A stretch of DNA of 37,087 nt. Origin: Stenomitos frigidus ULC18 (GTDB lineage: Bacteria; Cyanobacteriota; Cyanobacteriia; Leptolyngbyales; Leptolyngbyaceae). Where the stretch lies: positions 1 to 37,087 of the forward strand of contig NZ_PVWK01000152.1 in the NCBI RefSeq assembly GCF_003003795.1, written 5' to 3'. The notes beneath the pieces are model-generated. The model did not search any database, was not told the DNA's origin, and saw nothing but the letters and a program-made list of their open reading frames with translations. The position numbers were made by a program, and so were the translations under genes. Of this stretch, positions 612 to 3,867 are shown piece after piece (position 1 is the stretch's first letter; every line of letters starts with the position of its first letter).

Positions 612-1487
612 ATGCATTTCTTTAATAGGAGCGCGTTCTTGACTACCTTGCTGCATCCAACGGCGACCATTCATCCTGATGCTGAACTGCATCCAACTGT
701 GCAAGTAGGAGCCCACGCTGTGATTGGGGCAAAAGTTAAGGTGGGTCCTGAAACAGTGATTGGCCCTAACGTTGTGCTAGATGGGTGGACTGAAATTGGC
801 GCACGTAATCAGATTTTTCCAGGTGCAGCGATCGGCGTAGAGCCACAAGACCCCACCAGTAGTGGCACTAACAGTTTGGTGAAAATCGGCAATAATAATC
901 AAATTCGGGAATACGTCACGATTAGCCGTTCAAATCGAGCGGAAGAGATGACGGTTATTGGTGATCACAACCTGTTAATGGCGTATATTCATGTCGCGCA
1001 GGGGTGTGTCATTGAAAATCATGTAGTGATTGCCAATGCAGTTATTTTGGGGGAGCACGTCCATGTGGAATCGCGAGCTTTCATTAGCGGTATTGGTGAA
1101 ATTCACCCCTTTGTGCATGTCGGGCGGTTAGTAATGGTGGCCTTTATGCACCAGATTACACGCGATATCCCGCCTTATATGTTGGTAGAGGGGCAGCCAG
1201 CACGAGTGCGATCGCTCAATCGAGTTGGCCTGAAACGTGCAGGCTTGGCGGCAGAAAAAGAAGGGCAAGTCATTCAGACACTAAGAACGGCCTTTCGCTT
1301 GCTTTACCGATCGGGCTTCTCACTGGATGAGTCACTTGATCGGCTAGACACGCTGCCCGACAATGAGCATTTATTCCACTTGAGACAATTTTTACGCTCA
1401 TCGCAAATAGAAGGACGACGTGGACTAACGCCCGGTAAGGGTTTAGGAAGCGACGAGAGCAGCATGGTATCGGTTGTGGACGAGTAG
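612..1487 (+). CDS. LpxA-like acyltransferase homologue lacking the catalytic histidine
   Basis: This is a left-handed parallel beta-helix protein of 291 residues, with the hexapeptide pattern (HPTATI, HPTVQVGAHAVIG and so on) over about residues 14–190 and an alpha-helical C-terminal part of LpxA type (GLKRAGL, then helices). LpxA is the cytoplasmic UDP-GlcNAc acyltransferase that starts lipid A synthesis. Aligned with E. coli LpxA, the substrate-contact histidines are kept (H127, H149, H165), but the position of the catalytic base H125 is Gln130 (codon cag, motif HVAQGC instead of HVAHDC). Nearby family-typical residues are also changed: the AGHV, VHQF and MVGG motifs read GEHV, IHPF and MVAF. 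No lpxC, fabZ, lpxB or lpxD is adjacent, although cyanobacterial lpxA normally sits with them. I chose the ATG at 612; a TTG lies directly before it, and there is no clear ribosome binding site. It is probably a diverged paralogue rather than the housekeeping LpxA. Confidence 0.85.
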   Translation: MHFFNRSAFLTTLLHPTATIHPDAELHPTVQVGAHAVIGAKVKVGPETVIGPNVVLDGWTEIGARNQIFPGAAIGVEPQDPTSSGTNSLVKIGNNNQIREYVTISRSNRAEEMTVIGDHNLLMAYIHVAQGCVIENHVVIANAVILGEHVHVESRAFISGIGEIHPFVHVGRLVMVAFMHQITRDIPPYMLVEGQPARVRSLNRVGLKRAGLAAEKEGQVIQTLRTAFRLLYRSGFSLDESLDRLDTLPDNEHLFHLRQFLRSSQIEGRRGLTPGKGLGSDESSMVSVVDE

Positions 1488-1534: not shown

Positions 1535-1616
1535 ACCTAACGACGAGCATGGACAAAGGCGATCCTCTGCACACGCTGTCCAGTAGCATAGAAACCTAAC
1601 GACGAGCATGGACAAA
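1535..1616. repeat. Duplicated 3' end of rarA (23-bp direct repeat, period 59)
   Basis: The 23 bases at 1594–1616, which encode the last residues FVHARR and stop codon of rarA, occur again at 1535–1557, 59 bp further downstream. Read in the same frame, the second copy gives I-A-F-V-H-A-R-R-stop against V-A-F-V-H-A-R-R-stop in the gene, so the similarity extends about two codons further upstream. This looks like a remnant of a small duplication of the gene end. Confidence 0.7.
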
Positions 1617-3803
1617 CGCGACCGCGCTATGCCATTTCACTGTTTGATTCACCAGACGAGTAAAGGCTGCCTGAACGTTAGTGATTTCTATTTTAGAAAG
1701 CTGATGCGCCAAATGCATAGCGTAGGTTGGTTGGGCATTGACGGGTACGAACCAGCGATCGATGAGTGCAGTGGTAACGAGCATTTCTGTAGACGATGGT
1801 TCGACTTGAATCTCAACCGCGAAGCCAGTGGTTTCAAAGATAGCTTGTAGATTCTGTCTATCCCAATTCACCATTGGATCGTCGGGCTGAGTGTAGATCG
1901 CATCTTCTGTCTTAACCAGCTTTTGGTAAAGCTTGGTGCTAAGCCACATTGGATCAAGCAGTTGGTAGAGCCGCTGCGCCTGACGGGGAATCACTTCTGC
2001 CAGCGTGATGGTGCCGTTTGGCTGTAACCAGTCCAGCAGCGATCGCACAATACCTGCCTTATCGACCTCTCGCATGATTGCATTCCGTCCAATAATGTGG
2101 TCAAAGCGCACATCGTTTGCCTGTCTTGCCAGAGCGGTAGGCAACTCAGTGAGGGATGTTTGCAGCACGATCGGACGCGTTAATTCTGAGAGGGCGGCGG
2201 CTTGCTGGGTCAGCGCGTCTGCATCTGTTGTGGTACGCACACAGGCAATCACGCTGCCTTCGGGTGCCTGGCGCACAGCTTCCCAGGTAAGTAAGCCAGT
2301 ACCAGCGTTGAGATCCAGCACGACATGATGGCGCTGGAGGTGGGCGAGGGCAAAGAGGCGATCGCGTACCTCTCCTAACCGCTCACCTGACTTGCCTAAC
2401 GTCCGTTGAAGCCAGCGCTCTTGAGCAGAATCCAACGGTCCAAAGGTCAGCCCTTCTGATGCTGCCGCATCGTCTACCAGCGCTGCCAGTTGTGCCTCAC
2501 GCTGTCGTGCGACTTGAGTTTGAATCGCCGCTTCAAAGCCCTGATTCGACGGTTGGTAAAACACCTGACCTTGAAGGCTACTGGGCAAATACTGCTGGGC
2601 CACCCAGTGATCGCGATACGCATGAGGGTAAAGGTAGCCTGTACCATGACCAAAACCCTTTTTGTCTCGGTTGGCATCTTTAAGAGGATTGGGGACATCG
2701 CCCTCTCGCTCTTGCTCCACCGCCGCCAACGCATCAAAAAAGCCCATAACACTGTTGGATTTGGGAGCCGTTACCAGATAGAGGGTGGCGTGTGCCAGCG
2801 GATAGCGACCTTCCGGCAACCCGATCCGATCGAAGGTTTCGGCACAGGCATGCACGATCGCGATCGCGTTGGGGTCTGCCATACCGATGTCTTCACCCGC
2901 TAGAATCAGCAGCCTCCGGAAGATGAAGCGTGGATCTTCTCCTGCGTAGACCATGCGCGCCAGCCAGTAGAGTGCCGCATCGGGGTCAGACCCACGCACA
3001 CTTTTAATAAAGGCGCTGATGGTATCAAAGTGAGCATCCCCTTCTTTGTCGTACAGGACAGCGCGACGCTGAATCGATTCTTCTGCGACTGACAGCGTGA
3101 TATGGATGCTGCCTGCGTCATCCGGTGGCGTCGTCTCCACTGCCAGTTCCAGGGCATTCAGCAGCGCACGAGCATCCCCATTGGCGACATTCACCAGATG
3201 GTCGATTGCGTCTGCATCCAACTGCACCTTAAGCTTGCCATAGCCACGATCGCTATCCTGTAACGCTTGCTGCACGACCTTTCGCAAATCCTGTTCATCC
3301 AGTGGCTTGAGTTGGAAGAGGCGCGATCGACTGACCAGTGCCTTATTCACTTCAAAATACGGATTTTCGGTCGTCGCCCCAATGAGAATCACCGTGCCGT
3401 TTTCCACCCAGGGCAGTAGCGCATCCTGCTGTGCCTTATTGAATCGATGCACTTCATCTACGAACAGAATCGTGCGCTGACCGTACATACCGCGTTTATC
3501 TTGAGCAGCGGCGATCGCCTCTCGAATTTCCTTCACCCCAGACAGCACTGCATTGATCGCAATAAAATGCGCCTGCGTAGTATTGGCAATAATCCGGGCG
3601 AGCGTTGTCTTCCCCGTCCCTGGTGGCCCGTAGAAAATGAGCGACGAAAGCTGATCGGCTTGGATGGCTCGTCGCAACAGACGTCCGGGACCGACGATCG
3701 CATCTTGCCCCACAAACTCGTCGAGCGATCGGGGACGCAATCGTGCGGCTAGAGGTGCTTCGGCTTCAGTTCTATCGAAGCGATGCTGCTGAAAAAGATC
3801 CAT
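1596..3803 (-). CDS. rarA: RarA/MgsA AAA+ ATPase fused to a methyltransferase-like domain
   Basis: The first 430 or so residues are a replication-associated recombination protein A (RarA/MgsA/WRNIP1 family), a clamp-loader-like AAA+ ATPase that acts at stalled replication forks. Visible motifs are Walker A GPPGTGKTT (59–67), Walker B ILFVDE (112–117), sensor-1 GATTENP (142–148), and the family C-terminal signature through HGTGYLYPHAY (386–396). RarA alone is about 430–450 residues; here about 300 more follow, with a class I SAM-binding motif VLDLNAGTG (495–503), so the protein has 735 residues. Such RarA fusions are known in cyanobacteria; whether the second domain methylates anything is unknown. 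I chose the ATG at 3803 (MDLFQQHRF) over a TTG at 3839, because the extra residues match nothing in the family. The gene is convergent with the lpxA-like gene. Confidence 0.92.
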   Translation of the reverse strand: MDLFQQHRFDRTEAEAPLAARLRPRSLDEFVGQDAIVGPGRLLRRAIQADQLSSLIFYGPPGTGKTTLARIIANTTQAHFIAINAVLSGVKEIREAIAAAQDKRGMYGQRTILFVDEVHRFNKAQQDALLPWVENGTVILIGATTENPYFEVNKALVSRSRLFQLKPLDEQDLRKVVQQALQDSDRGYGKLKVQLDADAIDHLVNVANGDARALLNALELAVETTPPDDAGSIHITLSVAEESIQRRAVLYDKEGDAHFDTISAFIKSVRGSDPDAALYWLARMVYAGEDPRFIFRRLLILAGEDIGMADPNAIAIVHACAETFDRIGLPEGRYPLAHATLYLVTAPKSNSVMGFFDALAAVEQEREGDVPNPLKDANRDKKGFGHGTGYLYPHAYRDHWVAQQYLPSSLQGQVFYQPSNQGFEAAIQTQVARQREAQLAALVDDAAASEGLTFGPLDSAQERWLQRTLGKSGERLGEVRDRLFALAHLQRHHVVLDLNAGTGLLTWEAVRQAPEGSVIACVRTTTDADALTQQAAALSELTRPIVLQTSLTELPTALARQANDVRFDHIIGRNAIMREVDKAGIVRSLLDWLQPNGTITLAEVIPRQAQRLYQLLDPMWLSTKLYQKLVKTEDAIYTQPDDPMVNWDRQNLQAIFETTGFAVEIQVEPSSTEMLVTTALIDRWFVPVNAQPTYAMHLAHQLSKIEITNVQAAFTRLVNQTVKWHSAVAFVHARR

Positions 3804-3837
3804 AAAACATAACGGCTTGCCCCAGACCGCCGCGTTC

Positions 3838-3867
3838 AAGAAATCAGACTTGAAGAAATCAGACTTG
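3838..3867. repeat. 15-bp perfect tandem repeat upstream of rarA
   Basis: The unit aagaaatcagacttg occurs twice head-to-tail (3838–3852, 3853–3867), followed by a partial third unit (aagaaa). It lies in the leader region of rarA, about 35 bp before the chosen start codon. Confidence 0.8.

Follow-up and report, generated by a model that had tools for sequence, protein, structure and literature searches.

An LpxA paralogue of one cyanobacterial lineage altered in the GlcNAc/catalytic half of its active site

The contig analysed here (37,087 nt of Stenomitos frigidus ULC18, taken over its whole length and hereafter called the window) carries a paralogue, referred to below as b, of LpxA (acyl-ACP--UDP-GlcNAc O-acyltransferase), with which lipid A synthesis begins. 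The b gene is a duplicate maintained under purifying selection, it occurs in a narrow set of filamentous cyanobacteria, and its product has lost conserved residues in the GlcNAc/catalytic half of the active site while the residues of the UDP side are retained. Judged from the aligned residues, the loss concerns this half-site rather than one residue, as the replacements of Gly143 by Glu, Gln161 by Pro and Gly173 by Phe are common to all eight b proteins. Paralogue b is probably a partner, a regulator or a repurposed relative of LpxA rather than a working duplicate. Among these roles we lean, tentatively, towards a conserved pseudo-LpxA with half an active site that would serve as a partner or regulatory subunit of the canonical enzyme. 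No description of such an LpxA paralogue was found among the titles and abstracts listed from the open literature, a scope outside which most subscription papers lie. Residue numbers follow E. coli LpxA, in a sequence identical to PDB 1lxa.

The gene, its fold and its genomic setting

The frame of b remains open up to its TAG stop and encodes a full-length LpxA-family product (Table 1). The sequence-only reading had let the gene begin at position 612; the TTG at 639 is preferred, because an in-frame TTG and the GGAG that precedes it stand at the same place in 8/8 orthologues. Promoter- and terminator-like sites in positions 1-2000 of the window did not rise above shuffled sequences. The protein passes the cut-offs of both NCBIfam LpxA equivalog models, with 298.8 bits against 226 for NF003657 and 265.3 bits against 231.05 for TIGR01852. 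LpxD shares the fold of b (Z 23.1-23.6), but b begins at position 95 of the LpxD profile, and so is without the LpxD N-terminal domain, and its 61.5 bits against the LpxD model fall far below the cut-off of 242.5.

Table 1. Features of paralogue b in the window
Feature	Position	Strand	Basis
LpxA paralogue b, 282 aa, TTG start, TAG stop (1485-1487)	639..1487	+	Equivalog cut-offs passed; AF2 model against solved LpxA
Shine-Dalgarno AGGAG, 7 nt before TTG 639	627..631	+	GGAG and TTG equally placed in 8/8 orthologues
GlcNAc-contact loop (E. coli 75-84), with L75P and K76T in the window	852..881	+	Alignment; repeat-4 loop role from PMC6286764
CAG, Gln replacing the catalytic base His125	999..1001	+	Alignment to E. 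coli LpxA
GAG, Glu replacing Gly143 (oxyanion backbone amide)	1053..1055	+	Alignment; role from PMC6286764
CCC, Pro replacing Gln161 (alpha-phosphate contact)	1107..1109	+	Alignment; role from PMC6286764
TTT, Phe replacing Gly/Ala173 (acyl channel, chain length)	1143..1145	+	Alignment; role from PMC6286764
C-terminal helical domain, PF13720, protein residues 176-262	1164..1424	+	Pfam match
AAT, Asn198 retained (uracil contact, UDP half)	1218..1220	+	Alignment
CGT, Arg204 retained (UDP half)	1236..1238	+	Alignment

The AF2 model and Pfam together predict a left-handed beta-helix followed by a C-terminal helical domain, the coils at 138-168 being of low confidence, and no accessory domain was seen in Pfam. 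The AF2 model of b matches 21 solved LpxA entries with Z scores of 31.5-34.0 over 247-262 residues. When the same 42 sequences were supplied, mean pLDDT reached 93.1 for a canonical control and 78.1 for b, a contrast that rests on the best models, since the five models of each ranged from 93.1 to 67.2 and from 78.1 to 70.6, respectively. The tail aside, pLDDT in b falls below 50 at 138-148 and 150-168, where the canonical control has 91-97, and these are the coils that bear the new Glu, the new Pro and their neighbours. The overall fold predicted for b is that of LpxA, with an uncertain geometry in the reworked coils.

A search of the source assembly with TIGR01852 returned two genes over the cut-off, the one in the window (265.2 bits) and one at C133:124621-125382 (304.8 bits). 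The latter is the normal second lpxA that the sequence-only reading had suggested looking for: it encodes the motif HVGHNC and lies on another contig in the order purC-bamA-lpxC-fabZ-lpxA-lpxB, where lpxA is named by NCBIfam and the other genes from gene order and a reading of their translations. LpxD is found over its cut-off on a third contig. The possibility that b is the only LpxA of the genome thus falls away. All eight genomes with b also have a canonical LpxA, to which b is 57-62% identical within the same genome. In six of the seven canonical copies of the genus (L048:7610-8440 and its counterparts) His144 is Tyr, the exception being genome G003, whose b keeps His125; a link between H144Y in the canonical copy and H125Q in b was set aside, as it rests on one or two events.

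The conserved cyanobacterial cluster is described as lpxD-lpxC-fabZ-lpxA-lpxB (PMC3087551), and b was correctly placed outside it by the sequence-only reading: with G000 protein baits, no purC, bamA, lpxC, fabZ or lpxB was detected in the flanks of any of the eight b loci, of which the window contig offers 0.6 kb upstream. No operon ties b to LpxA, because b is not near lpx genes. Its own surroundings are largely common within the genus. Upstream are a pentapeptide-repeat gene and an RRM gene, the latter on the opposite strand; the downstream neighbours are an AAA+ gene of MgsA type that runs convergently and a HEAT-repeat gene, in some loci with an intervening gene. Each of the four occurs in 6/8 loci. 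The exceptions are the window contig, which begins after the upstream pair, G003, in which the downstream pair is absent from the stretch covered, and G017, which shares none of these genes. None of the flanking genes gives an operon clue or hints at a substrate or a regulatory partner of b. The MgsA/RarA-type AAA+ protein of the window (1596-3839, minus strand) has a long C-terminal extension with a weak match to the methyltransferase domain PF13847 (E 4e-4, below its cut-off).

Residue changes and the half-site comparison

In LpxA, the UDP pocket lies on one monomer and the GlcNAc pocket on the next, the latter including His160 by way of P. aeruginosa His156 (PMC7072397). His125 is described as the catalytic base and the backbone amide of Gly143 as the oxyanion hole; His122 and Gln73 contact the acyl hydroxyl, Gln161 the alpha-phosphate and Lys76 the sugar, and Gly173 lies in the acyl channel (PMC6286764). 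The eight b proteins were compared at these positions with 67 other LpxAs, namely 48 of the lpx-cluster type, 18 other extra copies and E. coli LpxA; two incomplete rows (L046 and L047) were excluded, as was the clade-1 copy of G016, and the panel is a non-random sample, chosen for genomes whose LpxA scored high or was present more than once.

The replacement of His125 by Gln, with which the sequence-only reading began, is borne out. Residue 125 is His in 67/67 other LpxAs and Gln in six b proteins, His in that of G003 and Pro in that of G017, so that Gln125 was rejected as the defining trait of the group. More constant are changes that had escaped the earlier reading. Gly143 is replaced by Glu in 8/8, position 173 is Phe in 8/8 against Gly or Ala in 67/67 others, and Lys76, found in all 48 cluster-type copies, has given way to Thr, Ile, Ser or Ala in every b. 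The loss of Lys76 alone is not diagnostic, because it is also lost in 18/18 other extra copies, which keep the rest of the site. As to the motifs said to be altered around the active site, the change from HQF to HPF is indeed peculiar to b, for Gln161, like Gly143, is invariant in the 67 others and is Pro in 8/8 b, but GG to SG is not, as the lpx-cluster LpxAs of seven genus members also have SG; this change was therefore rejected as a marker of the paralogue. The statement that the other histidines remain is true of His122 and His144 (8/8 each), but His160 persists in only five of the eight, the position being occupied by H, Y, Q or F, and position 99 is Ser in seven. Gln73 is kept in 8/8 and Asp74 in 7/8. 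On the UDP side, Met170, Asn198, Gly201 and Arg204 are kept in 8/8, and Ile152 is Phe in b. The other LpxAs themselves vary at positions 76, 99, 144 and 152. Ten residues are common to all eight b proteins and do not occur at the same positions in any of the 67 others; seven of these fall within 143-176 (E143, G157, E158, P161, F173, H175 and Q176), and the remaining three are at positions 8, 13 and 190.

Twenty-five aligned columns are invariant in the 67 other LpxAs, and seven of them (73, 74, 122, 125, 143, 160 and 161) were taken as the GlcNAc/catalytic half-site. Paralogue b departs at five columns, D74 (1/8), H125 (7/8), G143 (8/8), H160 (3/8) and Q161 (8/8), all of which belong to the half-site, so that 5/7 half-site columns are changed against 0/18 of the others (Fisher p = 4e-4); when the count is limited to the three columns at which the majority of b sequences depart, p = 0.015. 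A count over columns 90% conserved in the 48 cluster-type copies, with changes at 4/8 GlcNAc-side, 0/5 UDP-side and 11/80 other columns (p = 0.026), agrees with this result and is weaker. The reworking of the catalytic face is mildly backed by coil register as well (15/24 against 18/54 positions, p 0.025), in a grouping that was set after the table had been seen.

Distribution, phylogeny and selection

Paralogue b is present in 7/7 genomes of the genus and in 1/35 other genomes of the family (G017). A profile built from the eight paralogues, which therefore match it by construction, gave 560-604 bits for the eight carriers among 42 family genomes and 424.5 bits for the next best protein; two of these genomes, G034 and G041, yielded nothing at the search threshold. 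Across 388 class genomes, an even draw from a larger set with at most six candidates scored per genome, the same eight were separated from the next best match, which reached 446.5 bits, and among the matches listed at E 1e-118 or better no further b stood out.

In a tree of 77 LpxA rows, the eight b proteins form one group (support 100/100) inside the lpx-cluster type and far from the second cyanobacterial clade of extra copies. The tree nests G017b inside the genus, with a long-branch warning, and AU tests reject neither a genus-only clade (p 0.40) nor a clade of the six Gln proteins (p 0.30). As to the suggested check whether the Gln form is a conserved clade, b is monophyletic, but Gln is not shared by G003 (His) and G017 (Pro). 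G003b has His125 together with E143, P161 and F173, which would suggest, subject to the long-branch warning and the AU results, that the pocket changed first and the base was lost later.

Other departures were noted among the LpxA copies. The second clade of extra copies, or clade 2, comprises 15 of the 18 extra-copy rows (L056, L058 (592-1449), L060, L062, L064, L066, L068, L069, L071, L073, L076, L086, L088, L090 and L091); in it His125 is kept, Lys76 is Ala or Ser and His144 is Tyr, and no lpx genes lie in the flanks covered, except in G016, about 6 kb from the cluster. Like b, clade 2 is an extra LpxA copy that lacks Lys76 and is not inside the lpx cluster, but unlike b it keeps His125, Gly143, His160 and Gln161, and it is distant on the tree. 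A third kind of extra LpxA (L079, L081 and L083, from G063, G077 and G090 of one family) keeps His125 and forms a long branch beside clade 2. Six cluster-type LpxAs (L059, L061, L063, L065, L067 and L078) have HQG for HQF, that is, Gly for Phe162, and three of them have Asp144; this group is placed as the sister of b with weak support (81/92). G057 has two cluster-type lpxA genes, one of which, L078 (G057:C404), lies on a 4.2 kb contig and encodes a protein identical to that of G032, of another family, at 268/272 aligned positions, a near-identity that suggests contamination of the G057 assembly.

Within the genus, pairwise dN/dS (Nei-Gojobori) is 0.035-0.085 for b (20/21 pairs computable) and rises to at most 0.101 when G017b is included; the canonical copies have 0.017-0.065 (21/21 pairs). 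These values are rough, as most dS are near or above 1 and one of the 21 b pairs gave no dS. The frame is intact in 8/8 b genes, the TAA of G005 being the end-of-frame stop. The idea that Gln125 is a sequencing error of this strain does not hold, since six genomes carry it, three with the codon CAG and the other three with CAA. The low dN/dS and the two Gln codons show that b is maintained; it is not a pseudogene, nor the product of a sequencing error.

The variation that is tolerated is unevenly spread. Within the genus, 70/236 positions vary in b and 44/236 in the canonical copy. In the GlcNAc loop (75-84), 7/10 positions vary among the b proteins of the seven genus members and 0/10 among the canonical LpxAs of these genomes; in the stretch 176-202, which holds Asn198 and Gly201, the counts are 1/27 for b and 6/27 for the canonical LpxAs. 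The contrast between the two regions has p = 0.005, the regions having been picked after the variation profile was seen, and 5/226 ten-residue windows, possibly including neighbours of the loop, match its excess of b over canonical variation. The listed UDP-side sites vary at 1/9 in both copies, which therefore points to retention and not to extra constraint.

Possible roles of the paralogue

Paralogue b is a duplicate of the cyanobacterial lpx-cluster LpxA and has kept the beta-helix, the UDP-side half (M170, N198, G201 and R204) and the C-terminal helices, while its GlcNAc/catalytic half was dismantled through the loss of K76, H125, G143 and Q161 and the relaxation of the GlcNAc loop. With these residues gone, b has probably lost first-step acyltransferase catalysis. 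Each active site of LpxA is formed by two adjacent subunits, the first of which contributes the UDP half and the second the GlcNAc/His half; because one half is lost in b and the other kept, and because sites are shared in this way, we infer that b works with the canonical LpxA. It may enter mixed trimers with the canonical enzyme or dock on it, lending its UDP side and an acyl channel altered by Phe173 to a canonical neighbour. Its own catalytic side would take no part, and the result would be a tuning of the amount or the chain length of the lipid A precursor. Both an association with canonical LpxA and a regulatory effect on it are plausible.

LabP of Cronobacter sakazakii (CSK29544_02616), known here by description, is a partial precedent for a partner of LpxA. 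LabP is reported to bind LpxA and to raise LpxA activity (PMC5770445). According to a review, it is related to LpxA and occurs alongside an LpxA of the same genome, and an LpxA-LabP hetero-oligomer is raised only as a possibility; unlike b, which is 57-62% identical to canonical LpxA, LabP shares 26.7% identity with it (PMC12444477). The mere presence of more than one LpxA is not new, since a duplication of lpxA has been noted in Geobacter sulfurreducens (PMC3087551). Among the observations that stand against a partner role are that b lies away from lpx genes, that G003b retains His125 and that the preserved His122, Gln73, His144 and, in seven of eight, Asp74 fit a repurposed enzyme as well.

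The main rival is accordingly an acyltransferase turned to another purpose, in which a homotrimer of b would move a shorter acyl chain to another acceptor, with Glu143 or His122/His144 as the base and Phe173 shortening the channel; we consider this possible but rather unlikely. It is consistent with purifying selection, with the kept His122, His144 and Gln73, and with the concentration of b-specific invariant residues at 143-176, which are predicted to line the cleft; in E. coli LpxA, moreover, larger residues at 173 are described as favouring a C10 donor (PMC6286764). The variable sugar loop and the shifting residue at position 160 are unlike a site for one defined sugar, and the neighbouring genes offer no hint of a substrate. 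It is unlikely that b is a homotrimer that binds a ligand or acts as a scaffold without any tie to LpxA, such as a sensor of UDP-sugar or acyl-ACP. The left-handed beta-helix fold, the kept UDP-side residues and the retained C-terminal domain would suit such a function, but neither an accessory domain in Pfam nor an adjacent regulatory partner gene was seen.

That b is still an active LpxA isozyme which tolerates its changes is quite improbable. Its scores over the equivalog cut-offs, the His125 of G003b and the variation of other LpxAs at 76, 99, 144 and 152 would allow it, but the base is lost in 7/8, Gln161, Gly143 and Lys76 are lost in 8/8, and a canonical copy stands by in every one of the eight genomes. 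A decaying redundant copy or a sequencing error, to which the variation at 74, 76, 125 and 160 and the narrow distribution could point, is very improbable indeed and was rejected on the dN/dS values, the intact frames, the occurrence of both Gln codons and the largely common gene order within the genus.

Returning to the partner role, b differs from the LpxA of the equivalog models in lacking His125 in 7/8, in G143E and Q161P in 8/8, in the loss of Lys76, in Phe173 and in its place outside the lpx cluster, and is like it in its full length, its beta-helix and C-terminal helices, its UDP-side residues and its scores; the models thus label such a copy as the enzyme. It is conceivable, if doubtful, that b regulates LpxA as an inbuilt pseudoenzyme and that such a regulator is restricted to a single cyanobacterial lineage. 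As a conserved paralogue that lacks one half of the site shared between subunits, b provides a natural case in which to ask whether a related subunit without catalysis can tune LpxA.
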